From: Blastomussa wellsi
Lineage: Eukaryota; Cnidaria; Anthozoa; Scleractinia; Plerogyridae
Length of the DNA: 64,000 bases
Reading direction: 5' to 3'
NCBI GenBank assembly: GCA_947652115.1
Contig: OX393562.1
Span: 8,998,874 to 9,062,873 of the forward strand
A program made the position numbers and the translations under genes. Below are positions 346 through 61,762 of this stretch, in pieces. Below the pieces are notes generated by a model. The model ran no database searches. It saw only the letters and a list, made by a program, of their open reading frames with translations, and was not told the origin of the DNA. The first letter of the stretch is position 1; every line of letters starts with the position of its first letter.

Positions 346-1016
346 CGATCGTTGATCTCTTCTGTGACTTCTGTTTCTTCGACCTGAGACACACGGTGAT
401 AGGTAAACAAACATCTCGCCAGTTCACCCAACGTTTTCGAAGAACCAAAGACCCCCGCCACGTCTGCCCTATTTTTCCCAGAACCCGGTTCCGAGGTGGC
501 AACTCCCTTCAATGCATCGTAGCCCCACGCTTCAGCTCTTAGAACGTCCAGAGATAGAGGACTCACAAATAAACGCCTGGCGTCAAAATGTCTGGCATTG
601 ATCATTAGGGCCAAGGTTATACAAGTCGGTAACATCGCGTCTAAAACCTGACGGTCAAACCCGAAATACAGGATGTGCCCTGTGACGACTTCTTTACGCA
701 CAAGCAAGTTGCCGGGCACGAGTTGTTCCTTTTGCTCGAGAAAAACGCAACATTTTTGATCTGCATAGAAAAAGATGCGATTCATCATGTACAGAAACGA
801 GTACAGTTCCAAGATAGTCTTATCTGTAGTATCTGTCGATATCCAATGAGTGTAATCAGTGTCGCGGCCATTCACGTCCAACACCAGAAATCTGAAATCG
901 CCATCGAGGTCTATCGGTCTTGTTAAGGGTCTTGGTGGCACGAGGTCGGTAGCATTTATCTGCACCTCTTGACCAAAAAGTGAGATACCTCTGGCACCAC
1001 GAGACCACTTGGCCAT
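336..1016 (-). CDS. Unrecognised virus-like protein, 226 aa
   Basis: A complete 226-residue frame from an ATG at 1016-1014 to TAA at 336. It diverges from the DNA polymerase gene, whose first ATG lies only four bases away at 1021, so any promoter must lie inside one or both genes. Its 3' end overlaps the start of the next minus-strand gene by ten bases. I see no signal peptide, membrane helix or zinc-binding cluster, and I do not recognise the family. A gene packed against a replication gene often encodes a structural or replication accessory protein, but nothing in the sequence decides this. Confidence 0.6.
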   Translation of the reverse strand: MAKWSRGARGISLFGQEVQINATDLVPPRPLTRPIDLDGDFRFLVLDVNGRDTDYTHWISTDTTDKTILELYSFLYMMNRIFFYADQKCCVFLEQKEQLVPGNLLVRKEVVTGHILYFGFDRQVLDAMLPTCITLALMINARHFDARRLFVSPLSLDVLRAEAWGYDALKGVATSEPGSGKNRADVAGVFGSSKTLGELARCLFTYHRVSQVEETEVTEEINDRCY

Positions 1017-1020
1017 TTGG

Positions 1021-3207: not shown

Positions 3208-4405
3208 TCCCGTCGATGCGTCCGCCTGCCTGACTCGACGCCGGAAATCATGTCTCTTGATGACCGAGTTTTTTTGTAGTCGATTGTGTCTTTCGCGACT
3301 GCCGCTCGACGCATACGGCATCGACAGAGCCAATCGCGTGCTTGTTAAACCCAATCACGGAAAGAGCAAACAAGTTTCGCTGTTGGATGCAGCTAGGAAT
3401 GGACTATCCATCGATCTGATCGAGTATCATCGTCGATGGATGCAAGCGTGCATCGACACTTTGATCTGCCCTCGTTGTCAGCATCCTTTGGAAAACTCGT
3501 CAGAGTCCTGCACGGAAGGAAATGACCTATTTCACAAATCCTGCAATCCTGGAGGACAACCGCTTGACCAGGTTCACTCTTCGATCTTATCAGGCTGCAT
3601 CAGGACGGCCCTCTCCGCGGTTCTTGTCAGCGGGTACGAGAATGCCGCAGAAGCCGTTTCCTGTCTGATTGGTTTGCGCGACAAGCTGAACGGCATGTCA
3701 GTCGAGGAAGACCCACCATCTAGGCCCTACAGTCAAGTCATTGCAGACCTGAAAAAAGTAGTTGAATTTAAACCATCCAAGAAGTATCTCTTCTGCGGCT
3801 CTGTGTTTGCCTGCATTCCCAATACCAAAGGCACTTGGCTCTGTATCGAGAATGACAAGATCTCGACTGATGCTCTCCGTCTCTTGTACGAAGCAATGCG
3901 GGTCCATGATGTACACGGCCGGTACGACAACAATACAGCGGTACTCGAAGCAGTGTCTGAATATCCCGCCGATCGCTTGCGATTCGCTCCTCCGCCTATT
4001 CTCAAGGCAGAGGGTCAAGCACCCATTCAAGCGTGGCAAGAAGTCATCGACGATTTGGCCAAGACGCCAGAAAAGCCTGTCCTGAGAAGAACCGCACCGT
4101 TTAAATGTCAGGTGTGTGAGACGGTCTTTCACTTAGGAGTCGGTTACTGCGGGCACATCGCATGTACCTTTTGTTCCCTTGCCTGGAAGAAGTGTGCGAT
4201 CTGTAAGTCTGCCTGGAAGATGTCACGTTTGAACGAATCACCACAGATGAACTATCACCCTTCGGTATTTCCTTTTGGAGAATGGTACAAGTATCTACCA
4301 GTTACTGGATGGTACGTCTATTGTGGCCCTGGCGAGCTAGTGTACGATTCTTCTGGCAGACGCATTATTGCTCTGGCTACCGGTGAAGCATTCGATAGAA
4401 AGTGA
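3116..4405 (+). CDS. RING-type zinc-finger protein, 429 aa (possible E3 ubiquitin ligase)
   Basis: The C-terminal part, about residues 330-368, has the C-x2-C, C-x-H-x2-C-x2-C, C-x2-C spacing of a RING finger. RING domains commonly recruit E2 enzymes for ubiquitin transfer. A second Cys/His cluster with C-x2-C spacing lies near residues 117-142. The frame starts inside the end of the polymerase gene; ATGs at 3149 or 3191 are alternative starts. A polyadenylation-type AATAAA lies at 4453-4458, 48 bases after the stop. Large DNA viruses of invertebrates often carry several RING proteins, and a second one lies at 14,953. The target and the true ligase activity are unknown. Confidence 0.75.
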   Translation: MECYMPSFIFKMALGAVVTSYREQMETHVTSPVDASACLTRRRKSCLLMTEFFCSRLCLSRLPLDAYGIDRANRVLVKPNHGKSKQVSLLDAARNGLSIDLIEYHRRWMQACIDTLICPRCQHPLENSSESCTEGNDLFHKSCNPGGQPLDQVHSSILSGCIRTALSAVLVSGYENAAEAVSCLIGLRDKLNGMSVEEDPPSRPYSQVIADLKKVVEFKPSKKYLFCGSVFACIPNTKGTWLCIENDKISTDALRLLYEAMRVHDVHGRYDNNTAVLEAVSEYPADRLRFAPPPILKAEGQAPIQAWQEVIDDLAKTPEKPVLRRTAPFKCQVCETVFHLGVGYCGHIACTFCSLAWKKCAICKSAWKMSRLNESPQMNYHPSVFPFGEWYKYLPVTGWYVYCGPGELVYDSSGRRIIALATGEAFDRK

Positions 4406-4452
4406 ACATACCATCATTTTTTTTTGCTTGTTTTTCTCTCTTTTTTTGCTGA

Positions 4453-4458
4453 AATAAA
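4453..4458 (+). promoter_or_regulatory. Candidate polyadenylation signal AATAAA after RING gene
   Basis: AATAAA lies 48 bases after the stop codon of the RING gene, a suitable position for the 3' end of its transcript. Confidence 0.45.
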
Positions 4459-4728
4459 TTGTACATGCTTGGATTTGATCGTACGATCTTTGTTATTGTC
4501 GGTAGTGATATGCGCGACCCTGGATATATTTGAAATGGGGACCCATTTGTCATGTACGAAAAGAACATCGAGGATGACCAATTCTCTACTTAATGATATT
4601 GCAGACGAAAAAAATCAGCATGGCTCGATAAAAAGCAGAACAATTTATTTTGTAAAAATTAACCAGATAACATGCGCCGATGTTGAAGTACAGATTGTCC
4701 TTTCCACACACTTTGTTAATGAATATGG

Positions 4729-4780
4729 TATTATTATTATTATTATTATTATTATATTACTATTATTATTATTATTATTA

Positions 4781-4845
<65 letters not shown>
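4729..4845. repeat. (ATT)n microsatellite
   Basis: About 117 bases of almost uninterrupted TTA/ATT trinucleotides, with a few ATATTA variants. Long triplet runs are common in animal nuclear DNA and less usual in a compact viral genome, so this may reflect time spent in a host chromosome. Confidence 0.95.
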
Positions 4846-4846
<1 letters not shown>

Positions 4847-5225
4847 AAGTGACAGGTGCCTCCCATTCAAGAGTTCCAGTCACAGCCGGCTCTCTAGCCA
4901 GAGGACGAGATAAAACTCCATCATTTTGCCCTTTTCGCGTTAGAGGTGTAGGCAGATCTCTGCGGTTACTTGGAGGAGATATCGACTCTCTGGCGTTTGG
5001 ACAAGTTATCCTGGCACGAAACCTTGATATTTGGTTACGATTCTTTAATCAGTTCTAAGTCTTAAACGTTGAACTGTTGTAGTCTGCTTTTTATTCTGTC
5101 AACTAGTTAGAGTCAATACACTCGCGGTGGTTCCATCTATGGGCATTGCCGTTGACTTCTCTTGTTCTTTCCGTATACTACAGCCAACAATTAAGAGCGA
5201 GTCAATGTATCGAAAGGTTTCATGT

Positions 5226-5231
5226 TTTATT
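5226..5231 (-). promoter_or_regulatory. Candidate polyadenylation signal for Cys-rich protein gene
   Basis: TTTATT on the plus strand (AATAAA on minus) lies 66 bases downstream of the stop of the minus-strand gene ending at 5297. Confidence 0.45.
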
Positions 5232-5296
5232 GAATGGCGCTAAACTACAGATGACTACAGAACATAATAAAAAAGCAAGACTGGGGCCTGTCTGTA

Positions 5297-6874
5297 TCAT
5301 TGCTCGTCACACGGCAAGACTTCCTCTTTGCTTCGGTCGCAATGCAACTGCGGCACCTCCTCCATGCTGACAAATTCTAGACCGATCCCACGTGGAAACT
5401 CTATTGGCGTCTGACACCTAGACAGTGTCACGATGGGATCTGGTGCAAGACGACACAGCAGGCGTGGCGTCCCATACTGGCATTGGTCAAGACATACACA
5501 CTCGCCTTGTCGCAAAGGACGCGATACTGGATATGCGCGTAGCCACTCGTTGGCAGAATAAAACCGATAACCCAAGGCAAACACTTTTCTTTCATAGGGG
5601 GCAAGATGCTTGACTTCTGCTCCGTCTGGGCACAGCTTTTCTCCGGCTCGACAGGCACTGACGTTCCACAGTGTGTTTGCGTCGTTACCAGAAAGGCTAC
5701 ACAAACTGAACTGCATCGCCTCGGGGTCGTAATGTTTGAACAAACGGTATCCATTGGGAAAACAGCCACAGCTCGGTACAATGCACGGAATCAGGCAAGT
5801 GCACTTTGGGGTCGACTCCAATGAAATTCTCGTCTCAATCTCGCACTTCTTTGACGATTCCATGGAGCAAGTCCAGAATGTTCCGTCTATGGTGTGTATC
5901 TTTCCGATCGTCTTATCTTCCCACTGCACGTCAAACGCTGTGTGACGTAGATCGCTATTCGCCGGCAATCGAGAATCGGGAACGCATTTCACCGGTCTAG
6001 CATCCCATGAAGGCATCACACAAAGGACCTTCGGAAATGCACCCAAGCAGTGTTCGATGCAGATGCAGACATTTGCTCTCAAGTCCGAAACGTTCAATCC
6101 AATGGGCTGATAAAACATCTTGGCACTCGGACGATAAAACCGATAGCCCCGTGCCATTGCCAACAAGCTCTTTTCGTCAAATTCGTGGCTCTTCCAGTTT
6201 GCGGGACATTGACTGGAGTCCCCTCTCCTGGGGCCACGACATGGTGTAACTCGAAACAGATCGTCAAAAGGATACAACGCGCGCAAGTCCAAACGCCCAG
6301 TAAGACTGTCTAAGGGTCGAGCAATCATTCCCCGCTTGGTGATGCAAGGGCAATCAGTAGAATTGCAGGGTTCCAGTGATCGACAAAAGCAACGCGGCAT
6401 CTCGTGTATCTCTTTTACGGTGTAGCTCAAGTTACAGGATGGAGGCGTGGACGAGGGACAAGCGCACTTCATCTCACCCGAAGCGTTCAAGATGCCATAA
6501 TCTTGGCCACATTCAACGCGGCATTTGGTCGTACCGACACGCACGGCTGGTGCATAAGTTCCCTTTTCGTCCAACGCGACAGGTACACACCAAGGTTTTT
6601 CTCCGTTGCCTTTCACAAATCGTCTCGTACACCCTCCACCCAAGAGTTCGCAGCCTTTGTCCAACCAGGTATCCGATCCGTTCTCCGGCCCAACAGTGTC
6701 TTGACATTGCCTCAATTCGACAGCCGTGTGATTTACATCGCATACAGGTTGACCGCAGCGCACGTACAACAGAACACCAGATTGCCCCAAACATCCATAT
6801 GGAACGGTACAGGAATCGCGATAATAAACGCCTAATCCGGCAGTTATAACTGTCAATGCAAACAAAAACATCAT
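5297..6874 (-). CDS. Secreted/envelope-type cysteine-rich protein, about 525 aa
   Basis: The N-terminus is a short hydrophobic stretch typical of a signal peptide or signal anchor, followed by a very Cys-rich ectodomain with several N-x-S/T sites. No second membrane helix is visible, so the protein would be secreted or held by its N-terminus. Two stretches resemble each other: both contain GYRFY followed by a C-x-C-x3-C-C pattern, which suggests an internal domain duplication. The first in-frame codon is GTG at 6877; I take ATG 6874 as the start. The preceding gene ends three bases upstream. Cys-rich, N-terminally anchored proteins include baculovirus-like per os infectivity factors, but I cannot claim homology. 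A virion envelope role is inference. Confidence 0.65.
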   Translation of the reverse strand: MMFLFALTVITAGLGVYYRDSCTVPYGCLGQSGVLLYVRCGQPVCDVNHTAVELRQCQDTVGPENGSDTWLDKGCELLGGGCTRRFVKGNGEKPWCVPVALDEKGTYAPAVRVGTTKCRVECGQDYGILNASGEMKCACPSSTPPSCNLSYTVKEIHEMPRCFCRSLEPCNSTDCPCITKRGMIARPLDSLTGRLDLRALYPFDDLFRVTPCRGPRRGDSSQCPANWKSHEFDEKSLLAMARGYRFYRPSAKMFYQPIGLNVSDLRANVCICIEHCLGAFPKVLCVMPSWDARPVKCVPDSRLPANSDLRHTAFDVQWEDKTIGKIHTIDGTFWTCSMESSKKCEIETRISLESTPKCTCLIPCIVPSCGCFPNGYRLFKHYDPEAMQFSLCSLSGNDANTLWNVSACRAGEKLCPDGAEVKHLAPYERKVFALGYRFYSANEWLRAYPVSRPLRQGECVCLDQCQYGTPRLLCRLAPDPIVTLSRCQTPIEFPRGIGLEFVSMEEVPQLHCDRSKEEVLPCDEQ

Positions 6875-6877
6875 CAC

Positions 6878-7348
6878 TCAAGAGAAGATCTCGGGAATGT
6901 TGTCTCGAGAAATGACTTGGATGACATCTTGTACCCTGACATCGTCTGGGAAGGAATTCGCTTCGATGTAACTCTTAATCTGTGCCACCTTGGCCTTGTC
7001 TACATGTCTGGTCCAAGCTTCGTCCTTCGACCGCAGAGCTCGCACCCTGGCACTTCGGTGGGATTTTGGCAAGTGCCGAAATAAATCAAAGAAGTGTTTT
7101 CGGTGTAACGGGTGTTTGAGATTTTCGAGAGGCAAGAGCTTTGCATTCCAGAGCCAGAGGGCGTCTTGGGGTAAGAGCCTGATGGGGTGCGTCTTTTCCA
7201 TATCTCGAATCGTTTCCAACACGGCCAGTCGTTTCATTTGTGTCTCGTTTCGTTGACCCGTCCCGAAATAGGACGTCATCGCATCCGTGTGTTCGCGTAG
7301 TGCACGAAGAGCTTCTCCTTGCATTAGCAGATTACCTTCGATCGTCAT
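6878..7348 (-). CDS. Unrecognised virus-like protein, 156 aa
   Basis: A complete frame from ATG 7348 to TGA 6878. It sits directly upstream of the Cys-rich protein gene on the same strand and diverges from the gene at 7366 with only 17 bases between start codons. It is charged and helix-rich, with no signal peptide or membrane helix and no motif I recognise. The close spacing suggests co-expression with the Cys-rich gene or a shared bidirectional promoter with its divergent neighbour. Confidence 0.6.
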   Translation of the reverse strand: MTIEGNLLMQGEALRALREHTDAMTSYFGTGQRNETQMKRLAVLETIRDMEKTHPIRLLPQDALWLWNAKLLPLENLKHPLHRKHFFDLFRHLPKSHRSARVRALRSKDEAWTRHVDKAKVAQIKSYIEANSFPDDVRVQDVIQVISRDNIPEIFS

Positions 7349-7365
7349 GATGAATCACGGTGGAC

Positions 7366-8031
7366 ATGGCGAGGCTTAAGAGGTTAGTAAGACAAAAGAC
7401 GCAGAGCATCGTGGCATCTGCATTGAGGATCCTGTCGGACACTTCGCGGATGCACATCATGGTCGTCCAGGGCCATGCCGTGTTTGACGCTCTTTGCTCC
7501 GTAGAGACGCGCGACTCGAAGGGAATGCAACGGGCGATGCATCTCCAGGAAACGGAGACGGGTGGGGTACCGGTGCGGACACGAGTGTTTGGAGAGTACG
7601 CATTGACCCTCGTGGTTTTGGAATGGCCATCGAATCCCTCGAAAACGTCACCCATTTCTGAGAAACTTCTAGAGGTGATAGCAGACGCCATCGATAGCCA
7701 AAGGCATATCGACGGGATCACACTGATCGCTGACGAACTCGCTCTTGCAGATAATCCCGGTTTTTATTCGTGTTTTGTCGAGACCTATAATCAGCTCAGA
7801 TACGTCGGACATCCTCCATTCGCCATCGTCCATCATTGCGACGAGTCTGTGAAAGCCCTGATCCTACCCTTTAACGTCCTATTCTGCAAGGGTAATTTTA
7901 TAACGGCACAATCTTTGCATCAGCTGCTGTCCAAAAAGGTCGACAGAAATGAAACGAGCTTGGCAAGAGAACGCCGAAGTGGTTGCAGACGTGGAGGAGG
8001 CGACGCGTTTAGCGAAATCGGCAGCCTTTGA
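7366..8031 (+). CDS. Unrecognised virus-like protein, 221 aa
   Basis: I take ATG 7366 as the start; the frame also opens at GTG 7360. The protein is mostly hydrophilic with several beta-like stretches and an Arg/Gly-rich tail. The tail is encoded in the 83 bases that overlap the start of the helicase gene in another frame. I do not recognise the family. Its place immediately before the helicase suggests a replication-associated role, but the sequence itself does not show one. Confidence 0.55.
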   Translation: MARLKRLVRQKTQSIVASALRILSDTSRMHIMVVQGHAVFDALCSVETRDSKGMQRAMHLQETETGGVPVRTRVFGEYALTLVVLEWPSNPSKTSPISEKLLEVIADAIDSQRHIDGITLIADELALADNPGFYSCFVETYNQLRYVGHPPFAIVHHCDESVKALILPFNVLFCKGNFITAQSLHQLLSKKVDRNETSLARERRSGCRRGGGDAFSEIGSL

Positions 8032-9955
8032 CGATGATTACTTTGACAATGTTAATTGGAACGTCGAAAGCGAGAGTGACGATGACAGTGACAGCGAGGG
8101 TGTGGAGAACGATGGCATGGAAATGGATGCAGCGTACGTGAAAGAGAACTTTGATCGTCTCTACGTCAAGAAAGTGGTAAGATGGATAGAGGAAGGGATG
8201 AACGTGTTTGTCACCGGTTCACAGGGTCGTGGCAAGTCGACGTGCATGAAAAAGGTGATCCAAGAACTGTATAGCGCAGGGCACAAGTTGCTGGTGACGG
8301 GATCGACTGGGACCGCAGTTGTCAACATCTCGGATGCTGCTCAAAAGGGACTCGACCATGCAATCGAGAACGATCTGTTATCGAGCGAAATTGCTTCCAT
8401 TCTGGCTCCGGCCACTGTTCACAGTGCGTTCGGGCTACGCCATTGGGAGAACGGCACTCTAGAAGAATTGAGAAATGGGGAGACGGAGAGGGCAGCCCGG
8501 GCCGAGAACGAAGCGAAGGACGATTGCAAAGATGGGCCGGTCAAAAAGCGAGATGTATCAACGATGGCCGACAGCTTCATGGGAGGGTACAGTGGTAGGA
8601 ACTGGGGATGGCTGAAAGCGTTTCTCCAAGGAGGACGACAGATATCCTGCCGTGGCATCCCGTCTATTACATTTGCAGACGTGGTGATCATTGACGAGAT
8701 TTCCATGCTCGACGACCTGTTGATGGAAGTCATAGATCGCGTGGGCAGGTTTTGGCGGCCAGACCAGAAGCACCGTCCCTTCGGTGGCTTGACGATGGTG
8801 TTTGTCGGAGATTTTCAGCAGTTGCCACCCGTGGGTAGTGGAACGAGGCAAAACCCCATCTACTTGTTCGATAACGAAAAGTGGACAACCAAGACAGCTA
8901 GTCAAGGATGGGTCGACCGAGTCCTACACCTCAAGACCAACATTCGACAAGAAGGGGATCTCGAATACGGACGACTTCTCGACAGGATGGTTATGAACAA
9001 TCTGACCCCTGCAGACGAAGACTTACTCGATGGATGCGTGCTTCGTCCAACAAGTGGAATCAGTGGTCTGCAAGCGGCTCTGGATCCTAGAGTCCTGCCT
9101 GGAGTGAGGCGAGTATTCAACAATCAAGGTCTGATAGGAAGGTACAAGTGTGCAGTCATGGAATGGATCGATTCCGACAAGAAGATCACCTTCGAGAACC
9201 GGGAAGAGTACGAACCCAGTCAAAAGGTCATTTACGATGCATACGACCGAACACAAGTACAAGCCAAGGTCCAGCGATTTATGTACAAGCTAAAAAGTAC
9301 CGTCGACGAGCAGTTTTACTTGGAGTGTCCGGTGCGAATATTGGAAAACAAAGACATAGAGGGAGGAATCGTGAATGGGGCTATCGGCACGCTGAAGGGT
9401 AGAGCGGAACACGGGGGCCATCCGATCATAGAGTTAAAGAATGGTGAACTGTTCACGCTGCATCGCTCTTCAGCAGAGATCTTTGTCGATAACTATTCTA
9501 CGCGGCAACGACGCGAAATCAAGGCGGGAAGGCTGCAGCCCCAAAAAGGTCGACCGCTAGCCAAGTTTACGTTCAAGTATTACCCGATTAAGATGGCTTG
9601 TGCAGTGACACCTCACAGTCTCCAAGGCGTCACCGAGAAATCCCTCGTCATTCACCCCAACGTCGACTTTGCAAACGAGTACACTACGCTCGAATGTTAC
9701 TTCACGGCCCTCAGTCGACTCTGTTCGAGTGGTCTCGATAGCCCCGGAAAGGCGGAGACGCTACGCGCCATTCCTCAACCCACGCCGAGTCCAGAATCGT
9801 CGGACGATTTCCCTCAGCCTTGTGGATTATACTTGACACGACACCCACGATATCCGTTTTACGTGCGACCGAAAGTGAGAAGATATATAGACAACCTTGA
9901 AGAGAATCATTCACTCGTCAAACACAAACGAGATGGGGAAAGGGACCATATTTGA
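7949..9955 (+). CDS. Pif1-like superfamily 1 DNA helicase, virus-like, 668 aa
   Basis: An ATP-driven 5'-3' type DNA helicase, probably working with the PolB in genome replication or recombination. An acidic N-terminal tail precedes the core. Walker A (GSQGRGKS) is near residue 90. Walker B (IDEIS) is near 249. Motif III (GDFQQLPP) is near 287. The late motifs are HSLQGVT near 555 and TALSR near 586. All catalytic motifs look intact. The start is ATG 7949, inside the preceding gene's 3' end; TTTATAA about 50 bases upstream is a weak promoter candidate. It is unlike the broken Pif1 relic at the right end of the window, being GC-richer and uninterrupted. Similar helicases occur in several large DNA virus groups. 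Confidence 0.85.
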   Translation: MKRAWQENAEVVADVEEATRLAKSAAFDDDYFDNVNWNVESESDDDSDSEGVENDGMEMDAAYVKENFDRLYVKKVVRWIEEGMNVFVTGSQGRGKSTCMKKVIQELYSAGHKLLVTGSTGTAVVNISDAAQKGLDHAIENDLLSSEIASILAPATVHSAFGLRHWENGTLEELRNGETERAARAENEAKDDCKDGPVKKRDVSTMADSFMGGYSGRNWGWLKAFLQGGRQISCRGIPSITFADVVIIDEISMLDDLLMEVIDRVGRFWRPDQKHRPFGGLTMVFVGDFQQLPPVGSGTRQNPIYLFDNEKWTTKTASQGWVDRVLHLKTNIRQEGDLEYGRLLDRMVMNNLTPADEDLLDGCVLRPTSGISGLQAALDPRVLPGVRRVFNNQGLIGRYKCAVMEWIDSDKKITFENREEYEPSQKVIYDAYDRTQVQAKVQRFMYKLKSTVDEQFYLECPVRILENKDIEGGIVNGAIGTLKGRAEHGGHPIIELKNGELFTLHRSSAEIFVDNYSTRQRREIKAGRLQPQKGRPLAKFTFKYYPIKMACAVTPHSLQGVTEKSLVIHPNVDFANEYTTLECYFTALSRLCSSGLDSPGKAETLRAIPQPTPSPESSDDFPQPCGLYLTRHPRYPFYVRPKVRRYIDNLEENHSLVKHKRDGERDHI

Positions 9956-11447
9956 GGGTGCTTACGGCGTGGTGGAGGTGAAAGATGGAAAGGCGGTCAA
10001 AAAAGCTAAAACACCTGGTTTTAGTTCTTTGAACAGAGAAGCGATTGCTCACGTGCGAATGAGTAAAAGAGATAGCACGATTGCAATTTGTAAAGTATTT
10101 CATTACATGCTGCAGGAGGACCCTCTGTCACTCACCTCGAGTTTTGTAGAAAGTTTGACTATGAAAGATGCTGGCTCGTCCTTGGGGACATGGATGGAGT
10201 CAGAGTGGTTCTTTGACCCGATTGTAGTCTTGCTCCATCCTTTATTAGCGGCCCTTGAATTCCTGAAAGAAAGAGGTCTCTTACACGGGGATCTACACAC
10301 GGGGAACATATGTGTAGCTCGCGACGGACAGGGAACTTTGAGTGCCAAGTTGGTTGATTTTGGATGCAGCGCGGTGTTGCGAGATGAAGAAGAATGGCAT
10401 TGTCACACAACTAAGAGTCTATTCATCGATCCTCAGACACAACTACACTCTGACCAGAGTTGTCCTCCCTCGAAGAATATAGAAGAGGTGGAGCTTAAGA
10501 CCTTGTACAACGCTCACAAACACCGTGACCCACTGAGTCTCATTGCTATTGCAAGTACCCAGGAACACCATATTCCCCGTGGATTAAAGTTGGGAACTCA
10601 AGACGACGTCTATGGACTCGGCATATGCATCGTACGGATGCTGACAATGTTTGCCGACGTGCCGTGGGAGGAGTGGTTTCCACTCAACTCTTGTAACTGG
10701 CGCTACGCTGATAACCTCCCTTTGAAAATGAGGGTACTCGGTCAGATTCTCCAACACAATCCAGCTTGGGATTCTCGCCTTTTTCGAGATGTGCACAAGC
10801 GGTTCAGACCAGTCTCCGACAAGTTTGAAGATGCCAAGAAGATGGAGGCTTCTGCGCGGGCGATCGAGGTGTACCTTTCAGGGGTAAACACCTTATACCC
10901 CAACTTTTTCGCTCATCTAGACGTGTTGTACGACGCCCAGACTAGCGATCTCGTCCGAAGGTGTGTCCATCCGGATCGTCACCACCGTTACAATCACACA
11001 ACTAGCGAACCAATAACGCGAAGACGCAAGGCTACAAGACCGAGACGGTACAATGCGATAAGGCGAGGGGACCTCAAGATAGATCTTGGCACAAAGGATA
11101 GCATTCACGTCCTAGTCGGTCATTGTTGGATCATGACGGGGGTCGTGCGCAGGGGTCGAATCAAATGGTGGAATGCGGCGAAACCAATGACGACTTGTGT
11201 AGAAAGAATGCACCAATCGAAGAACTTGATGCGAAGTGCCTTGGATATGTTTATTTCTAAAGTTCGGAGATTTAACAGGTCATTGAAAGATTTACCCTGC
11301 ACAGAATGGCCTTTCGATCATGCGATTCAAAGAGAAGAGTGGCTTAAATTACTGGAGTTGTATTGGCTTCGAAAACGGACTATTCGACACGATAAGGAGC
11401 CAAATCTTGTGCCTCAACCGAACGACAAGAGTGTACCAACAGAATAG
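9933..11447 (+). CDS. Protein kinase, virus-like, 504 aa
   Basis: A eukaryotic-type Ser/Thr kinase fold. A Gly-rich loop (G-A-Y-G-V-V) lies at residues 9-14, an AVK lysine near 23, a catalytic loop HGDLHTGN with Asp near 120, and DFG near 142. An APE-region equivalent is followed by DDVYGLG. The residues needed for phosphotransfer are present, so activity is plausible. The C-terminal third is basic and unrecognised. The frame opens at TTG 9897, but the kinase-like N-terminus begins at ATG 9933, which overlaps the helicase end by 23 bases. A TATATA stretch about 45 bases before that ATG could be its promoter. Its 3' end overlaps the convergent membrane protein gene by 68 bases. The substrate is unknown. 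Confidence 0.85.
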   Translation: MGKGTIFEGAYGVVEVKDGKAVKKAKTPGFSSLNREAIAHVRMSKRDSTIAICKVFHYMLQEDPLSLTSSFVESLTMKDAGSSLGTWMESEWFFDPIVVLLHPLLAALEFLKERGLLHGDLHTGNICVARDGQGTLSAKLVDFGCSAVLRDEEEWHCHTTKSLFIDPQTQLHSDQSCPPSKNIEEVELKTLYNAHKHRDPLSLIAIASTQEHHIPRGLKLGTQDDVYGLGICIVRMLTMFADVPWEEWFPLNSCNWRYADNLPLKMRVLGQILQHNPAWDSRLFRDVHKRFRPVSDKFEDAKKMEASARAIEVYLSGVNTLYPNFFAHLDVLYDAQTSDLVRRCVHPDRHHRYNHTTSEPITRRRKATRPRRYNAIRRGDLKIDLGTKDSIHVLVGHCWIMTGVVRRGRIKWWNAAKPMTTCVERMHQSKNLMRSALDMFISKVRRFNRSLKDLPCTEWPFDHAIQREEWLKLLELYWLRKRTIRHDKEPNLVPQPNDKSVPTE

Positions 11448-49615: not shown

Positions 49616-50116
49616 TCAACTGGAGGATGGTGAATGGCCCATTGCCGACAACGGACACAGGCCCTTAGAAGACACAGGAATTATGGCATTTTTCAACGTC
49701 ATCACGCTTGGGCCAGTCAAAAAATTTGGCACCACATTTTTGTGAAGAAGCTTGTACTCCGTTTGTACAGCATCAAAGGTCTTCAGGGCACGGCCAATGT
49801 AAAACAACTTCTGATATTCAACCGTGTAGTATTTTCCATCTTGTGGAGAAGGAAATTCTTCAAAGCCTTGAATGTTCTTGTTGTGTAGCTCTAGAACCAT
49901 GTGTTTGCAAAAACTTGAGAAATCACTAGGCAGTGAAGACTGCAAAAGAAGGCATCTAGTGAATGCGCAAACGAAAGGGCCACATTCATAACTGTTAGCT
50001 TGTTTAGGGATGTCTTGCGGTGTGTTCGTGGAGAAATGCCATGCTTCAACATCTAGCTTGGGATCCATCTCTTGCAAGAGATCCCACATAACAGCACTCT
50101 TCGTAGATGGCTTCAC
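49616..50116 (-). pseudogene. Ulp1-like (C48) cysteine protease fragment
   Basis: A 166-codon frame with IPKQANSYECGPFVCAF, where the Cys of ECGPF corresponds to the catalytic Cys of Ulp1/SENP proteases. LELHNKNI and YIGRAL follow. Only the last part of a protease domain is present; the catalytic His/Asp region is missing upstream. Such domains occur as SUMO-protease-like modules of eukaryotic transposons. I read it as a relic of one. Confidence 0.55.
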
Positions 50117-51020
50117 AATTGCTGCTGCTAGCTAGGCTGTCGAGGACAAAAATGCGACTTTATTTTGGTTTCACAACTAGGAGTGACCATTGTTCAGTTC
50201 AATTCTTTATTTTTCTAATAGGTAATGTTTGCAAATTGGACATGCCAACAGGTAGCAGATACTAATCTAGGTGGGTCATGTCATAACTAAAGACAGTAGG
50301 TAGACAAGTTTACAGCAAATGAAGGAGATAAATGTACGAGTGTATGAATTATAAAATTAAGTTTGTGAGTTAATTAGTACCATATTAGGAGAAAGCACTA
50401 TTAGATATCTTATTTTTGCAGAAATTCTTAATAGATCTAATTCTGGAGTAATACAATTAAGACTACACTATATTATTCTAAAGATATAATAAGATTTTAA
50501 GAAAGCCTGACCTTTTGAATGATGTTTCCTATATCAAGATAGATAGTTTATTAAAACTGCATCGCAGCCAAAGGCTGAATTACGAATTATTTACAAATAC
50601 TTTACAATACTTAAAAATTACTAATGAGGTGCTTCTTAACCTAGTCGTCTCATCAAGCAAAAAGTTTAGAAGAGGTTCTTTGTACTGAGGAAAAGTACAA
50701 GCATCATCTGTTGCAATTATTGTGGATATGTTATGGTCCAGTCCATATTCCATTGTGCACTTTGAAGTATGGGATGATCTTCCATTGGTAGTGAATATAT
50801 CTAGTGAAGCCCTGTAAGTCTTTCCATGTGATACCTTGGTCTTCTTCGTTTTACCAGAATCTTAAATCTTCTTGTCATTCTTTTCACAGCTTTTTCTTTT
50901 GGTTCCCTTTTTGTGGTCCTTTGTTATTTCCATGTCTTCCCACAGGCTTCCCAAGCTCAAAATTCGACTCTGCATACGTGGTGTATGGGACAGCTTGTGT
51001 ATATAGAGAATTCTATGGGA
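50117..51020. other. AT-rich intergenic DNA
   Basis: No supported gene or repeat seen. Confidence 0.45.
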
Positions 51021-53499: not shown

Positions 53500-54977
53500 C
53501 AAGTAAAGCGCGCGATCAGAGAAAACAGGGATGAGTTCTTTGAGTCTGCTAATATCGAGTTCAAGAACAACCCCAAACGTCTCTGGTCAATATTAAAATC
53601 TCGCTCAAAGTCGCGCAACATACCACAAAGTGTCTCCATGGCAACTGGTAACCTACGTACAACCGCTGACATTTTTAATAACTATTTCACTTCAGTGTTC
53701 TTTGTTCCTCAAGAGGACAAAGTAGATAGCGGCGCAGGGAAATTCCCTGCTGCAGAAGCCCCTTTACTGATGTTGTGTTGCACGTCGGTGAAGTTGAGGC
53801 TGTCCTAAAATCACTAGACCCAAACATCCCGGCTAGAATCCTGAAGGAAACAGCCACTACTATTGCTCCATCACTATGCAAGCTGTTCAACAGGTCTCTG
53901 GGGGAAGGCTGCATACTGTCTGAGTGGAAATTGGCCAATGTTGTACCTGTCTATAAGAAGGATGAAAAAGATCATGTTGAAAACTATAGGCCTATCTCCC
54001 TACTTTGCATTATTTCCAAAGTCCTCGAACGTTGCGTCTTGAATCGCATCAACGACCGATTAGAAGATCTGATTGCAGACTGTCAGCATGGGTTTCGAAG
54101 TGGACGTTCCTGTGTCACAAATCTACTGGAGACCCTAGATTTCATCGGTGCTATTCTTGATAGAGCTGGTCAAGTGGATTGTGCATATTTAGACATGTCC
54201 AAAGCCTTTGATAAGGTTAGACACGACCTCTTTATGGAAAAACTGCAGGATGCTGGTTTCGGAGGGAACCTGCTCACATGGTTTCGCGTGTATCTCTGTG
54301 GCAGGTGCCAACGTGTCACCGTACTAGGCGCGAAGCCCATCTGTACAAGCTACGAGGTTAATGGCTGTACCATCAAGTCCTGTGAAGTAGAGCGTGACCT
54401 GGGCGTCTCCTTGGACTGTGACTTGACTTGGCACGCCCAAGTCTCTCACCAAGCTGCATGTGCAAACAAGTTGTTAGGTTTTGTTTGGAGGAACTCTAGG
54501 TTTATTCACAGTACTTCCGTAAGTCGCACATTATACCTTGGCGTCTGGGCGCCCCAAGGCATTGAACTAATTTCTAAACTGGAAAGTATCCAAAGACGTG
54601 CCACCAAATTCATTCTTTGCTTGCCTTTTTCAACAAATATCTCTTACAAAGAAAGACTAATGTCTGTAAACCTACTTCCTGTGTGCTACTGGCATGAGTT
54701 ACTAGATCTAGTATACTTTTACGGCTACGCATTTAAGGCTACGCATAATATGATTTACTTAGATCCGTCTGTTGTTCCCTTCGCGTGCGAATGCACGCGA
54801 AGGACCCGTATATCCGTAACGAACTCTCAATCTTTTGTGCCTAAAAATTGTAGGACTTCTACCTTTCAGATATCTTTTTTCATTAGAACAACTAGAATCT
54901 GGAACCTGCTTATTTCTAGAATTGACCTAGATAATGTTACTTTTGAGAACTTTAAATCTGTTCTTTACGGTTATTAG
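53500..54977 (+). pseudogene. LINE C reverse transcriptase with the catalytic core deleted
   Basis: It has the fingers region (ENYRPISLLC, QHGFRSGRSC) and AYLDMSKAFDKVRH. It then jumps from RVTVLGA directly to the post-catalytic LGVSLD region. The GVPQGS and FADD motifs that belong between them are missing, an in-frame loss of about 100 residues. A frameshift near 53,770 precedes this part. It cannot polymerise DNA. Confidence 0.75.
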
Positions 54978-55269
54978 TCGCAGGCTCTAGCAATGAATTA
55001 TGACCCGGACTCTCCAAGGAGCTTCAAAAGTATTTGTTTGAAATGTAACACAGCCAGGTTTTTAGACCAAGAATTTAGCTGCTGCATGTGATTTAGATTG
55101 CTACTTTTATACCCTTTATATTTTGGGTCCGCAGTAATTGGCTTTAGCTGTTGGGGTGCCCCTGCCCAAGTATTTTAAGTTTATTAGTGTATTGTTCCGT
55201 TCTTATTACTAGTGTTTGTTGTTGTTGTTGTTGTTCTCTGTATTCTTTAGGGAGGGGGGTGAATAGGGG

Positions 55270-55350
55270 TATGCAAATCCGCTGATCCGCTATAATTTGA
55301 TAACCAAATCCGTCAATCCGTTAAAAAAAAATCGTAAAATCCGAATCCGT
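55270..55350. promoter_or_regulatory. Subterminal ATCCG motif cluster, left end
   Basis: Six ATCCG motifs, arranged as three pairs, lie within 85 bases of the left terminus. The same motif recurs at the right end. Confidence 0.6.
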
Positions 55351-55474
55351 TTGCTACTTGTCAAGTGGAAAGGTGAAAAACGCACCTTGAGCTGTTGTGT
55401 GTTAGCTAAACAATTTTTCAAAAACGTTCTGACACTTTTTATGGATTTTTAACTGCTAACTAAAATATCAACCC

Positions 55475-58400
55475 TTACATTAGAAATCTGCTGTTGATCC
55501 TGACTTGTCGTCCAAAGCGTGTCGTGGCTCCTAATAGGAAAGTGGACCGTCTGTCAAGTTCAGGAATGCTTGAATCTCCATCATCTGGTTCCTCGTCTTC
55601 GTCTGTACTTGAGTCGTACTCTGGGACCTCCTCCACATTCTCGGGGTCACTTTCGCCTGTTTCAACCTCCTCCTCGTTTACTTCAGAAGACTCTGAACCT
55701 TCAGACAAGGCCAAGTCGACTCTGTCTTCAGATATCTGAAGCTGTCTCTGATAGATCATTTCCGGCATCGTTCCATGTCTAGCCATGGTTGTTTCCTGAC
55801 GGTTTGTTCTTTGCCGAACGGCAGCTCCATACGTTAAGGCATAATTACGCATTTCTTCCACTGACTTTTCTGAGAGTTTTGCTACTGGGAGCTGTGGAAT
55901 AGAGGGAAGTGAAGCTAAGGGAATTTCATGTTCTGGGTCAGGGTACCAGGAGCTCTTTTCACTGGTGTAATAATACACTGTCGAAGACGAGAGCCGTTTA
56001 GTACTCTCTTTTATAGTATTTCCAAGGTCTCTGCAGTATTCCTTTTTTGATAGCAGCGGATGTTTGATGTGGCTGGTAGAGTGTAGGTGTTCAACGTCAA
56101 GGGTCATGCAGCTTAGAAGATTAGTGGCATCAAAAGAAAGAGCGGAAAACAGTGACCTCATTCTGTCCAATCCCCAGTGTAGCATATCGACCGACCTCAC
56201 AGTTACTGCAGAAACCGTGCCTTGGGGTCCATTCAGTGTCATCTTGGAGCATTCCGGTACAGAGCGAACTGACTTTTCATACTCAGCGAGTATTTCTTTG
56301 CATTCCTTGACCTTTTCTGTAGCCTCTGGTAAGGTTCTTGGTGGAGGAGATTGTCCCTTCTTATGCACAGAGAAAGCATCGTACAGCTTGCCAACGGACT
56401 TTAAAAATCTCGCTGTTTCGGAAAGAGGCGTGATTATTTTCAACGAGTTTGATTGAGCGTCGCAAATATATATGACGGAGTCAAACTCAACACAAATACC
56501 AATCGGTTGCTTGAACTGGCATTCCAAGACGGGACCATCTTGACTTCCTTCAACTTTGGTTCCAGCAAATAGCTGAACTGTTCCTTCCTCGTCAATTTTG
56601 AAGAGACTTGCTTCTTCCTGATCTGTCAAAAGGATCCCTCTCTGAAATGGCGCAACGGTGCATAGCGCGTTTTGCGATTTGTAAACGACTTGGCTTTTAC
56701 AGGAGGCGAGTTCTATTAGAGTTATGCCTTGATTGTGTGAAACAAACAACTTGTTGTTGTTCACGCAAAGGCTGACAACAGAATTCCAGTCGTCCCCATA
56801 GCCAATGATGCGTTGGACATTTATGGCACATACCCCATATCCGTCATACTTGAGCTGTGCACTATGTATTCTCTTGGAATGTGAGTCTGCTAGGAAGACA
56901 AGCTGTCGGTCAACTAACGCGATCGCCTGAATGTGCGCTTCGATAGCCTTGTCCATGAAGTTTACTTGGTGTTTGTCATGTCCAAGTGATGCATATTCTT
57001 CCTCTTTCCCCTTGAGAAATTTGCTTGCTTCTTTGCGTACCTCTGCCAGTGTTCCAGTAAATGGCAAGCCAAAGCGTTCTTTCAGAGTATTTAAGCATTT
57101 AACTGATGTTATCTTGCTTGAAATCAGGTACACATGGTTGTCCTCAAGTTCGACGATTAAGACAGGACCATCCGACGAGTTCAAAAACGCGACGTTGTTC
57201 TCACAGTGTACTTGAGTTGAAGCAAGATTTTTCTTGATTATAGATATTTTGTCGACAGGACTATGTAGACGGGCGCGGTAAAGAGTGGAAGAAGCCAATT
57301 TGCTGTCCCATGAAAGAAACAGAAGCCATCCAAAGTTTGCAATGGAGACACTAATTGGAGACGGGTACATGCCCAGGCGGTTGTTGTCGGTGAATTTATC
57401 AAGCTCTGGAATTAGAGTGTGGCAGACATAACCAACGCTTGACAGGAAAGAAGTTAACCGATCACTGCATAATGTTAAGACTGCCGAAGGGTCTTGGCGG
57501 TCCTTATTCTTCACATGGTCATTCCGTGGTATAAGCTTTCTTACTTTAGACATAGTATCGAAAGTAGAGCGGTTTCGTAGAGTGCGAAGCAAACCAATGT
57601 TGCTACGCTCATTGTTCAGCTTGAGCCACCAGTTGCTGAATGACGCTTTCAAACTTTTTCCCACATGCATAGAGTCAGGTAGTACAGTGAAAAGAGAGAT
57701 TTCAGGATCCATATTCCCTTCTTCTATACTTTTCCTAATCATTTCAAAAGCGCCCTTGTTGCCTGTCTCGCAATCTGCCGTGGCAGCAAAAATCGCTCGC
57801 TTGACACACTTTTCATTCTGCTCAAGGCAAGTCGCGCAAGCACGTAGAGATGAATGGTGGCTTACTTGACCTTTCTCTTTGCACTCACCACACACGTCCT
57901 TCATGTCAAAGCAGGTCTGGCAAAAGCTTTGGCAATGTTCAAAGCATTTTCCAAGTATGCTCTTTGATGACGAAGCCCGACTTTGGCAAGATTTACAAGT
58001 TTGTAAGATCTTCACCTGTTCTATCAACACATTGTGGAATGACTCTGCCGTTTTCCCAGACTTCGTGGAGTACTCAACTGCACAAGGTAGGCTACACTTA
58101 TTGTCAATGCTTGTGACAGAGGAGACTATTGCTTCGGTGACAAGGTTTTTCTTTAAAAAATCTGCACTTGGCTTAGGGTTCTTTCTTACGTAATCAATGT
58201 CAATGTTGAATGTTAAACCGACATTTTCTTTAAGTCGTTCATCAAATTCAATTGCCGGTTTAATAGCTGTGCCATCGTTTGCTAGGCAGCAAGGATACAC
58301 AGTCAAATAACTTGTCTCCACGATAGAAACAGCATGAAATGTCTCCATGAGCACGATTTGTCCTATCGAAAGTGGCTTCCACACTCCAGGCTCATTGGTA

Positions 58401-61064
58401 TAACCAGCTTGGTGTTTAAGGCACGTCTTATAAGAAGGGCCTCCAAGATTCATTCGCTTTTCGTTGGCAGGATCAAAGTGACTCCCTCTTCCCTCACTGC
58501 GGTTCATGGGACCTCTAATAAAGCATGCAACCTTCCTTCCTCCCAAGTAAGTAATTGTGTTAAAAAATTCGATGACTTCTTTGTCGTACTCGTGCAAAGG
58601 ATTGTAATGAATTTCTACTACATCTTTCAAAAATTTGTAGAGAATTCGGGTTCTGTCAATTTTTCCTATGCGAATCAGCTCATTCAGTTTAACACACACA
58701 GGATCGGCCATTTCTACGCCATATAACAAGGAGGTATTATCATCTTGGTCAAAGTCACTATCAATGTCCCTAGGGCCCTCTGTAATTGGACTTTCAACTT
58801 CCTTTTGCCCCACTTCGCTGTTACTCTCTTCGCTGTTACTATCTTGGCTATCATTCTCTGTTGACTTCTCACTCTCTTCACCCTCGTCACTCCAATCAAC
58901 GTCACTTTCCGACACGTTTCTATAATCGGATTGAAGCAGGACAAAACAAGTAGTTAAAGTCAGAATTTTAATAACATATTAAGCTGTTACAACAATGGTT
59001 CAATTGACTTCAATTTACCTTAAAAATAGTTATGGTAAATCAAAACAGGGTGACCAGAATGAATTCCATGTCATAATAAAATACACAAACGTTCAATAGT
59101 GAAAAACCAAGGCCGGAACAAAAGACGAACTCTATTCCTGTTTATTTACAAGGTGTACAAACCCCCTGTTTGACGCTATTTTGTTTTCATCAGTAATGTA
59201 AACAGGGCAAAACATAGAAGGGATTTACAAGTCTATGTAGTGTATGCATGTGTCCCTCACACATGTATTTTAGTATCGTTTGACTAGAAGACAATGGTTT
59301 ATTAGTTACTCTGTTTCTCTATCTGAGACATCTGAGTTGTCAACGTCAGAGTCTTCTGTAGGTTTCGACTTCTTGCTTGAACTTCCCGTCTCAGTCTCTT
59401 CAGGCAGTGACCTCTTCTTTGTTTTAGTGAATTTCAATAGTGATTGAGTCTCCTTCTTGTGCCTTGCATACCTCCCTTCACATCGATCATAATGGGCTAA
59501 AATAAAACAAGGACACATTCGCAACATTAAATTTTTCAGAACCGGAATTTTCTCATAGCGCGGGTGTCGAGGGGAATACGGTACACGTGCTTCCTAACGA
59601 GGGCAGTTCATGGTCTGTCCTCGAAGAATTGAATATTTTTTCTGCTTTGCTCTGTGCTCAGTTCGGTGACAAGCCACATACAAACTTTGTATGACTCTAA
59701 TTTTGCTTTGCCTCTGACGATAACTTTAACATATATTCTATTCCAATATATTAAACATTAGAACAACTTCAAATATAAGAGTATCATTAAAGACAGCTTT
59801 ATGGAAGTTCCCTTGCCCATCATAGAAAAATAAGACAAAAAAGAAATGCCCATACCTGTTCTAAATTTTTTGATGATTCCAGCATGCGCTCGGTCAAACT
59901 CAATTTGTCGCTCCACCCCACATACGCCATATTTTATGTGATATGGCCATTCAACTATTTTTCCTTTACATCTAATGGTCGTTTTGATCGAGGAAACAAC
60001 AACTTTGCTTCCTTTAAGCTTCTGTAGTTCTGCAAAGTAGATATATAAAATTGTGAGGGTTCACATAACCTGAGAATTCTGAATAACTTGCGACGGTCTG
60101 CGAATACCGTCATAGTCGTCAAACCACAAGGACAACAAGAGACATTCGAAGAACACAGTTAGCTTTTTGTTTGTTAGTTTTTTTTTGTTTTTGTTTTTTT
60201 GTTTGTTTGTTTGCACGAGCAGATAGGACAGAAAGACAACTCACCTTCATTAAGCTTTTGAATTTGGTCATCAGAAAGAACTTTGGATGGTACCTTCTGG
60301 TCCTTCTGGGGAGCTTTAGCTGTAACGACCGTAACGGTCGTAACGTCACTTGACCCTTCATTGGTTTTCGTGCTGATAACAATTGTTGGAGCTCTCTTGC
60401 CAAACAGTAACTTAATTGGATAAACATTAACTAAAAGGGAAATAAAAATAAATATCATCAGAAGAAATCCCAGAAACTTGATAAAGTCGATTTGCGATTA
60501 CATAGTTTTTATTATGTAATGTCATTATGAGATATTTTTATGTAATCATTGCACACTCCGCTTAAATCTGTCCATTATTGCAGGTATATTGATACTTCTT
60601 TCCTACTTACTTAACAGCTTATCAGTTCCATTTAAAATTGATGGCATTTCAAGTTCCAACTGCTTGTCAGTGTCAATGGTATATCTTTCTTGACGTCCAG
60701 ATACACGAGAACCCCTGTTGAGCTTGATGGCAATATTTTCACCCAAACCAAGCTCTTTTGCTGTGGAGTCCAATGCAGCAAACTCACTAAATAAAATAAG
60801 AAAGCGACAATTTATAAGGCAATTTAAACACCAATATGCTTTAGAGACCTTTGAATCAATTTCCATTAGCCACAAAATTACAGCTTTGCCTGTTAAACGT
60901 TTTCAAAAATAAAAAACTTACCACACGTGTTTACGAAGCTTGATCACACTTTTCCACGTTTCGGAATCCACTTGGCAGCGAAATTTATTTTTTTGAATGT
61001 AATCATCGCCTTTGGCCCCTTCATTGTAAAAGAATGCAACGCATTCTATTGTCATCAACTCCAT
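55475..61064 (-). CDS. Six-exon gene of the DNA transposon: zinc-finger/NHL-like protein, about 1,436 aa (candidate transposase)
   Basis: Exons on the minus strand: 61064-60922, 60786-60611, 60430-60245, 60029-59856, 59496-59310, 58919-55475. Every intron is GT-AG, all phases agree, and the total of 4,311 bases is divisible by three. The start is ATG 61064; the long last exon has no ATG at its 5' end, which is why splicing is needed. The protein has a globular N-terminus, a Ser/Asp/Glu-rich linker around exons 5-6, a Cys-rich zinc-binding region near residues 597-660, an NHL-like six-bladed-propeller stretch near 1,090-1,130 and an acidic tail. ADCETGN near 671 and PDSMHVGKS near 704 resemble the first and second acidic motifs of RNase H-fold transposases, but this is tentative. 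Its position alone between perfect TIRs argues for a transposase role. Confidence 0.75.
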
Positions 61065-61554
61065 TATTACCTATTGAACAAGAACATATAACTGAGTGGA
61101 ATCGGCGTACCGGCGACAGTATACCAGCATGGTCGGCATGTACCACGCGGTTCGCTCAAAGGTCGACAACCAATGCTTTAGAAATGTACTTAAAATGCGT
61201 CCAAGTCAAAGATCTAAGTCAAGGGTCATCCTTCAGATCACTTACCAAATGTAATCTTTCAAAAACTCCCGGGAAAACTGGACAATAACAGCGCCAAAGA
61301 CCATAGCTTTCCAATCGAGCCAATCGCAACCAGCACGATACAGGGTCATACAGGTCATACAGTGTCACGGTCATCACGGATAAGAGCGCGAACACAGCAG
61401 ACTTCCCGCTGGCAACATGTCACAGCGTCCTGCTGGCCATAGTGCGTTACTATTTCCCTGATGCGTGACATGCAGTGAGTCTCGTCCGTGACAAAAAAAA
61501 GTCCAGAAACAACGCATTTCTGACGTTCGTTCAGATCCACGATCCACGATCCGA

Positions 61555-61703
61555 ACTTCCTGACAAGAAAAATCCAAAATCCGGACCCAAATAATTGATC
61601 GAACCGCGAACCGCTGCAATTTCAGGATCAGAAAATCCGTTAAAATTTCGCTCTGAATCCGAAATCCGGGCAAAATAATTTGCAGAATCCGCCGATCCGT
61701 TGG
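61555..61703. promoter_or_regulatory. Subterminal ATCCG motif cluster, right end; upstream region of the gene
   Basis: Six to seven ATCCG motifs lie within 150 bases of the right terminus, in the upstream region of the six-exon gene. They could bind transposase and also regulate the gene. Confidence 0.55.
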
Positions 61704-61762
61704 CCTATTCACCCCCCTCTTTAGGGCAAAGCTAATAAAATATAATAAAATAAAATAAAATA

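Follow-up and report, generated by a model that had tools for sequence, protein, structure and literature searches.

The gene of P elements bears introns, as does that of the transposon described here. The DxxH motif of DDE transposases is defined in PMC3706591 and PMC9587614, and some Dada members carry an exonuclease domain between the second catalytic aspartate (D2) and this motif (PMC3706591). In Repbase, separate superfamilies are recognized, with exceptions, by the failure of PSI-BLAST searches to converge at E below 0.005 (PMC4455052). Here we analyze a 64-kb window (the whole stretch of 64,000 nucleotides, positions 8,998,874 to 9,062,873 of contig OX393562.1) from the scleractinian Blastomussa wellsi, which holds an element with inverted ends and a single spliced gene. 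We consider it very likely that this is a complete DNA transposon of the cut-and-paste type, probably active until recently, that its lineage stands apart from the named superfamilies compared here, and that it encodes a P-like DDE enzyme with an NHL propeller.

Results

Ends, duplications and copies across the genome

The element is bounded by a perfect 16-bp terminal inverted repeat (TIR), GAGGGGGGTGAATAGG, and flanked on both sides by TTTAGG (Table 1); repeat, coordinates and duplication are as the sequence-only reading of this locus had given them. No further TIR match at up to three mismatches was found within the window. Across the genome (368 Mb, 124 contigs), the TIR occurs at up to two mismatches in 802 places, compared with 131 for a reversed-pattern control. 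This excess, together with a chance of about 4e-4 per element for a matching duplication, rules out a chance TIR. The repeat is thus not confined to this locus, a point on which the earlier reading had staked its claim, and further elements carry differing duplications.

Our sample of elements was drawn from the 100 exact TIR places listed. It comprises the window element, all 20 facing TIR pairs seen besides it (L009-L028), and 11 elements from 20 unpaired TIR places read on contig C1 (L029-L048), where a partner end was accepted in 11 and the other nine were dropped from the count, giving 32 elements with both ends located. An exact 6-bp target-site duplication (TSD) flanks 24 of the 32, and 17 of the 20 facing pairs. 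Among the other eight, L045 and L046 differ by one base, the direct repeat at L036 and L037 is displaced or differs in length, and no duplication was found at L018, L024, L026 and L041. All 28 tabulated TSDs are different, and they tend to palindromic YTTAAR, with Y first in 22 and C last in one. TIRs combined with a fixed-length duplication at many unrelated sites (the 24 exact cases all differing) identify cut-and-paste transposition. The YTTAAR tendency also recalls the TTAA targets of other superfamilies.

Most of the 32 elements (27) are miniature forms, 424-756 bp long. In blast comparisons with the window element, those that match do so over only about 30-70 bp at a single end; L024 and L035 do not match at all. 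Larger forms include L027, a 2.0-kb internal deletion form, and L028, which holds about 1 kb of additional sequence. Judged from the 802 TIR matches, miniature derivatives probably number in the hundreds. Published coral miniature elements were considered and rejected as a match, since they duplicate TTAA and end in 13-14-bp TIRs of a different type (PMC2872659).

An own-genome protein search scored 40 of 129 candidates, and its counts are lower bounds. It returned at least 45 matches, including at least six gene loci that are 98-100% identical to the window (the window itself, L025, L054, L026, L028 and a fragment, L057). All of these but L057 lie between TIRs, and L054 is a further full-length copy with the duplication TTTATT. 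Exon 6 is open in three of the six, whereas L026 and L028 contain stops and breaks. Many TIR-bounded elements and several near-identical gene loci rule out a single-copy oddity; TIRs, duplications and gene copies between TIRs all support the complete DNA transposon first proposed from the window alone.

More distant paralogs share 27-48% identity, and subfamily ends were set by comparing near-identical copies of two of them. The L049/L050 subfamily (28% protein identity) spans 7,036 bp, with TIR GTGGGGGGGGACAGGGGGG and TSDs TGCTCT and CAATAA; L052 (35% protein identity) spans 6,365 bp, with TIR GAGGGTGTCAATGGGG and TSD CCACAC. A 6-bp TSD is therefore present in all three divergent elements readable at both ends. 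The right side is masked in L051, the sister copy of L052, and the left side in a third copy of the 28% subfamily, whose right end is seen at L056.

Polar subterminal arrays

Inside its TIRs, the window element carries six ATCCG motifs in its first 120 bp and six in its last 160 bp, with none reversed in either stretch. Across the oriented elements, 22/32 have five to six copies in the first 120 bp and 28/32 have six to eight in the last 160 bp, and 29/32 lack reversed copies. The exceptions are L016, in which all copies run the opposite way (the script left this element unoriented), L018, with one reversed copy, and L024; L034 has zero copies at its 3' end. The motifs had been described as paired, and they do occur at both ends, but on the same strand at each rather than as inverted pairs. 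Because the TIRs are inverted and the ATCCG arrays direct, the two ends of the element can be told apart, and such same-direction polar arrays may give them distinct roles. A similar layout is found in the 28% subfamily, with a direct TCCCG array of seven copies on the left, nine on the right and none reversed in the outer 400 bp; in the 35% subfamily, only the left end has a repeated motif. L024 (31-544) is itself unusual, a 514-bp element without TSD in which both ends are of the 3' type, perhaps a composite of two miniature elements.

A spliced gene for a predicted DDE transposase with a propeller

The gene is read from the minus strand; its six exons are separated by canonical GT-AG introns and together give exactly 1,436 codons. 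The splice model is probably correct, since exons 1-5 match the N-terminal part of an annotated protein of Oculina patagonica (33% identity over 249 residues, E 2e-39), and the unbroken spliced frame of the sequence-only reading is borne out. Residues are numbered on the protein, which is the exon-6 number plus 289, and conservation was counted over 57 aligned proteins, with nine near-duplicates and P0058 left out.

From the predicted structure we hold with good confidence that this single gene encodes a DDE transposase, with D504, D671 and E1232 as proposed catalytic residues, a DxxH motif and a Cys-rich insert before D2. If D671 and E1232 (exon-6 D382 and E943) are catalytic, the order D, D, DxxH, E is the same as that described for DxxH DDE enzymes (PMC9587614). 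P transposase is the best structural match of the predicted RNase H core; the VIA structure list for the whole model is filled by propellers and is uninformative about the RNase H region. Predicted fold and conserved residues together place the protein among DDE/D transposases. Each cysteine of the Cys-rich insert, which may bind zinc, is missing from at most two of the 50-53 proteins that cover it.

Between DxxH and the proposed catalytic glutamate, the model predicts a beta-propeller with the features of the NHL type. This is interrupted by a SAP-like helical insert. Of three such segments scanned, that of the relative P0050 matches PF02037 over the cut-off (E 8.8e-6), and neither the window's own segment nor that of P0033 gives a match. 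In sequence searches, Pfam returned no match over the 1,436 residues even at E up to 1 and only unrelated matches on C-terminal pieces, and when the core profile was run against PDB sequences, nothing came up beyond homeobox and LIM matches at chance level. The earlier statement that the protein resembles no transposase family thus holds for sequence but not for the predicted fold, which resembles the P-element transposase core.

At the N-terminus, we recognized a C2HC finger pattern by eye; a Pfam search of this finger gave nothing over the cut-off. The window copy has Tyr202 (59929-59931, in the exon 4 part of the finger) where L025, L026, L028 and L054 have Cys. Because Tyr replaces Cys in this finger, the window copy may not be the most active copy of the family.

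Alternatively, the 1,436-residue protein might come from a host or passenger gene that the element has picked up, with another enzyme moving the element. The miniature elements are too short to hold the gene, and host proteins often contain NHL and SAP domains. However, no other open frame of the element comes close to exon 6 in length, both divergent subfamilies hold related genes within TIRs that differ from those here, and the predicted fold of the core is DDE-like, with conserved D, D, DxxH and E. We regard a passenger gene as highly improbable.

Features and neighborhood of the element

Other features of the window lie outside the element (whose own features are given in Table 1). An open reading frame (ORF) for a reverse transcriptase of a long interspersed nuclear element (53730-54974; RVT_1, E 6.8e-15) stands directly 5' of the insertion. 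At 49619-50131, an ORF matches Ulp1-type C48 peptidase (E 3.8e-8) and is possibly part of another transposon. Further away, positions 973-11444 hold ORFs matching DNA polymerase B (E 2e-6), a PIF1-like helicase (E 6e-21) and a protein kinase (E 7e-11), along with long ORFs without match, and resemble an endogenous large-DNA-virus-like stretch.

Table 1. Features of the element, in window coordinates
Feature	Position	Strand	Basis or remark
Left target-site duplication TTTAGG	55246..55251	.	sequence
Complete transposon	55252-61719		flanked by TIRs and 6-bp duplication
Left terminal inverted repeat GAGGGGGGTGAATAGG	55252..55267	+	16 bp, perfect
Left subterminal array, six ATCCG	55277..55349	all on +	sequence count
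Exon 6, 1,147 codons and stop: transposase core, propeller, C-terminal part	55475..58919	-	
Proposed catalytic E, Glu1232 (exon-6 943, DVE motif)	56090..56092	-	33/34; model helix 940-947, after propeller
NHL-type beta-propeller (exon-6 about 494-833), between DxxH and proposed catalytic Glu	56420..57439	-	predicted
SAP-like helical insert in propeller (exon-6 about 600-645)	56984..57121	-	
DxxH motif, Asp704/His707 (exon-6 415/418)	57665..57676	-	D 56/56, H 55/56
Proposed catalytic D2, Asp671 (exon-6 382, DCExGNK)	57773..57775	-	54/55; directly after model strand 371-381
Cys-rich insert, ten conserved Cys (exon-6 306-371)	57806..58003	-	predicted zinc-binding
Proposed catalytic D1, Asp504 (exon-6 215, NDGTA motif)	58274..58276	-	kept in 50/50 covering proteins; in model strand 205-218 (first strand)
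Exon 5, second half of finger (H228, C232), then acidic/basic linker	59310..59496	-	C2HC, BED-like by eye
Exon 4, first half of finger	59856..60029	-	finger pattern by eye
Exon 3	60245..60430	-	splice model, Oculina alignment
Exon 2	60611..60786	-	splice model, Oculina alignment
Exon 1, includes start codon	60922..61064	-	splice model, Oculina alignment
Right subterminal array, seven ATCCG	61549..61699	+, direction as at left end	sequence count
Right terminal inverted repeat	61704..61719	-	perfect 16-bp partner of GAGGGGGGTGAATAGG
Right target-site duplication TTTAGG	61720..61725	.	sequence

Discussion

We propose that the window holds a transposase gene within its own transposon, a reading built on the observed ends, duplications, copies, miniature derivatives and conserved residues, and on a predicted fold and domain order. 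From these we infer the chemistry and the role of the propeller. The TIR and the head-to-tail subterminal arrays would be bound by the N-terminal zinc finger together with other domains. Excision would fall to the DDE site, which would also join the two ends to the target strands at points 6 bp apart; this would leave 6-bp duplications, at targets that loosely resemble YTTAAR. The propeller, including its SAP-like insert, would serve as an insertion domain and keep hold of DNA, RNA or a partner protein while the ends are synapsed or the target is captured. The miniature elements would depend on this same enzyme, supplied in trans, for their movement.

Two points bear on this proposal. The sequence-only reading had held that the gene should not lie outside such TIRs, which is true of five of the six near-identical loci; the sixth, L057, is a truncated 2.7-kb internal fragment (element positions 3084-5794) with no TIR in the 7 kb read. 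The other point concerns the third catalytic residue. Exon-6 D473 is kept in 55/56 proteins and D467 in 54/56, and D473 is a possible third acid. Were D473 (or D467), which precede the propeller, to complete the active site, the propeller would be a C-terminal addition rather than an insertion. We think this quite unlikely: both residues sit in a helical stretch after DxxH, the core model aligns with P transposase up to P residue 427, before the catalytic E531 of P (PMC8230255), and exon-6 E943 is kept in 33/34 proteins, in a helix after the propeller.

With the propeller read as an insertion, we judge the chances about even that the lineage is a new superfamily, sister to P in fold, with a propeller at the insertion-domain position of the RNase H fold and a SAP element within it. 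In this reading, the propeller would lie within an apparent remnant of the P-type helical insertion and may read RNA or chromatin, couple catalysis to target choice and replace the GTP switch of P. If true, a propeller at this position would widen what the DDE fold tolerates and offer a natural experiment on insertion-domain function. Three loci with open exon 6 and probably hundreds of miniature derivatives make mobility directly testable. Our analysis also helps to place an unclassified cnidarian gene family, whose Oculina, Desmophyllum and Clytia models are now called hypothetical or uncharacterized.

Comparison with known systems

The family could already be catalogued in Repbase or Dfam, unpublished and under another name, since a repeat with so many copies would be caught by routine annotation. 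We consider this unlikely, as PubMed Central yielded no paper joining NHL repeats, transposase and DNA transposons, and the named groups with 6-bp duplications, compared by description, differ in ends or domains. Likewise, none of the matches listed by PubMed Central searches dealt with a transposase bearing NHL repeats or a propeller. The propeller fold is shared with the NHL propellers of TRIM71, teneurin and NHLRC2, proteins that are not known to carry a transposase domain. In viral contigs, 39 stretches fitted the search pattern and none was a relative.

Dada elements also encode a DxxH DDE transposase with introns (one member has 1,402 residues), have a TSD of 6-7 bp, and include members with an extra domain inserted in the catalytic region; by analogy, their exonuclease insert is a precedent for extra domains there. 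Dada-U6/U1, however, lack TIRs, target RNA genes and have differently described zinc fingers, in contrast to the 16-bp TIR here. The 28 TSDs are all different, and a search for tRNA genes, made in the window only, found none. We rejected Dada on its ends. IS3EU and GingerRoot share the 6-bp TSD but have TA..TA termini (GingerRoot occasionally TG..CA; PMC10045372) and an IS3-like core, whereas the elements here end in GA..TC or GT..AC and have a P-like core; the termini led us to reject them. Kolobok occurs in cnidarians and has a DxxH DDE enzyme, whose catalytic region holds a zinc finger in most lineages, but was rejected on its TTAA-specific 4-bp TSD (PMC9587614), compared with varied 6-bp TSDs here. 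hAT was rejected on a TSD of about 8 bp (PMC3706591).

The P superfamily is the closest comparison. It shares the RNase H core fold, DDE with DxxH (PMC3706591), a large insertion domain before the catalytic glutamate, TIRs and subterminal repeats. The element might therefore be a diverged member of this superfamily (P elements/THAP9) with an altered duplication length and extra domains. P transposase is clearly the best structural match of the core, and a weak PF21787 match covers D504 (E 0.049, 14.4 bits versus a cut-off of 24.6); PF21787 appears in 2/11 relatives, where unrelated families score equal or better (zinc_ribbon_6, 0.0026). Several observations argue otherwise. The TSD is 6 bp in three subfamilies versus 8 bp in P (PMC7776569); no THAP domain is matched anywhere in the 1,436 residues, even at E as high as 1, and the C2HC pattern stands in place of a THAP N-terminus. 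The insertion of P is alpha-helical and GTP-binding, whereas that of the window protein is a predicted NHL propeller, and a Cys-rich insert precedes D2 only in the latter. Sequence similarity to P/THAP9 is not significant: hhalign with 18 P/THAP9 proteins places D504 (exon-6 D215) opposite the FDEM Asp of P, but at E 0.29 and with a score of 13.5, below the median of 17.2 for 60 column shuffles, and it also failed its null with propeller columns left out of the profiles. The genome also holds an ordinary P-like gene, at its one PF21787 locus. This fragment (L053, 925-2310; PF21787 E 2.5e-15) is the only such match found in the genome. Its resemblance to a P transposase of Stylophora pistillata (83% identity across 77% of the query) by itself points to a cnidarian host, probably a stony coral. 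We regard membership in P as possible but doubtful. Because the profile tests point to a separate superfamily by a Repbase-type criterion, we describe the lineage as probably P-like in its working, and as outside the P superfamily by TSD, N-terminus and profile tests.
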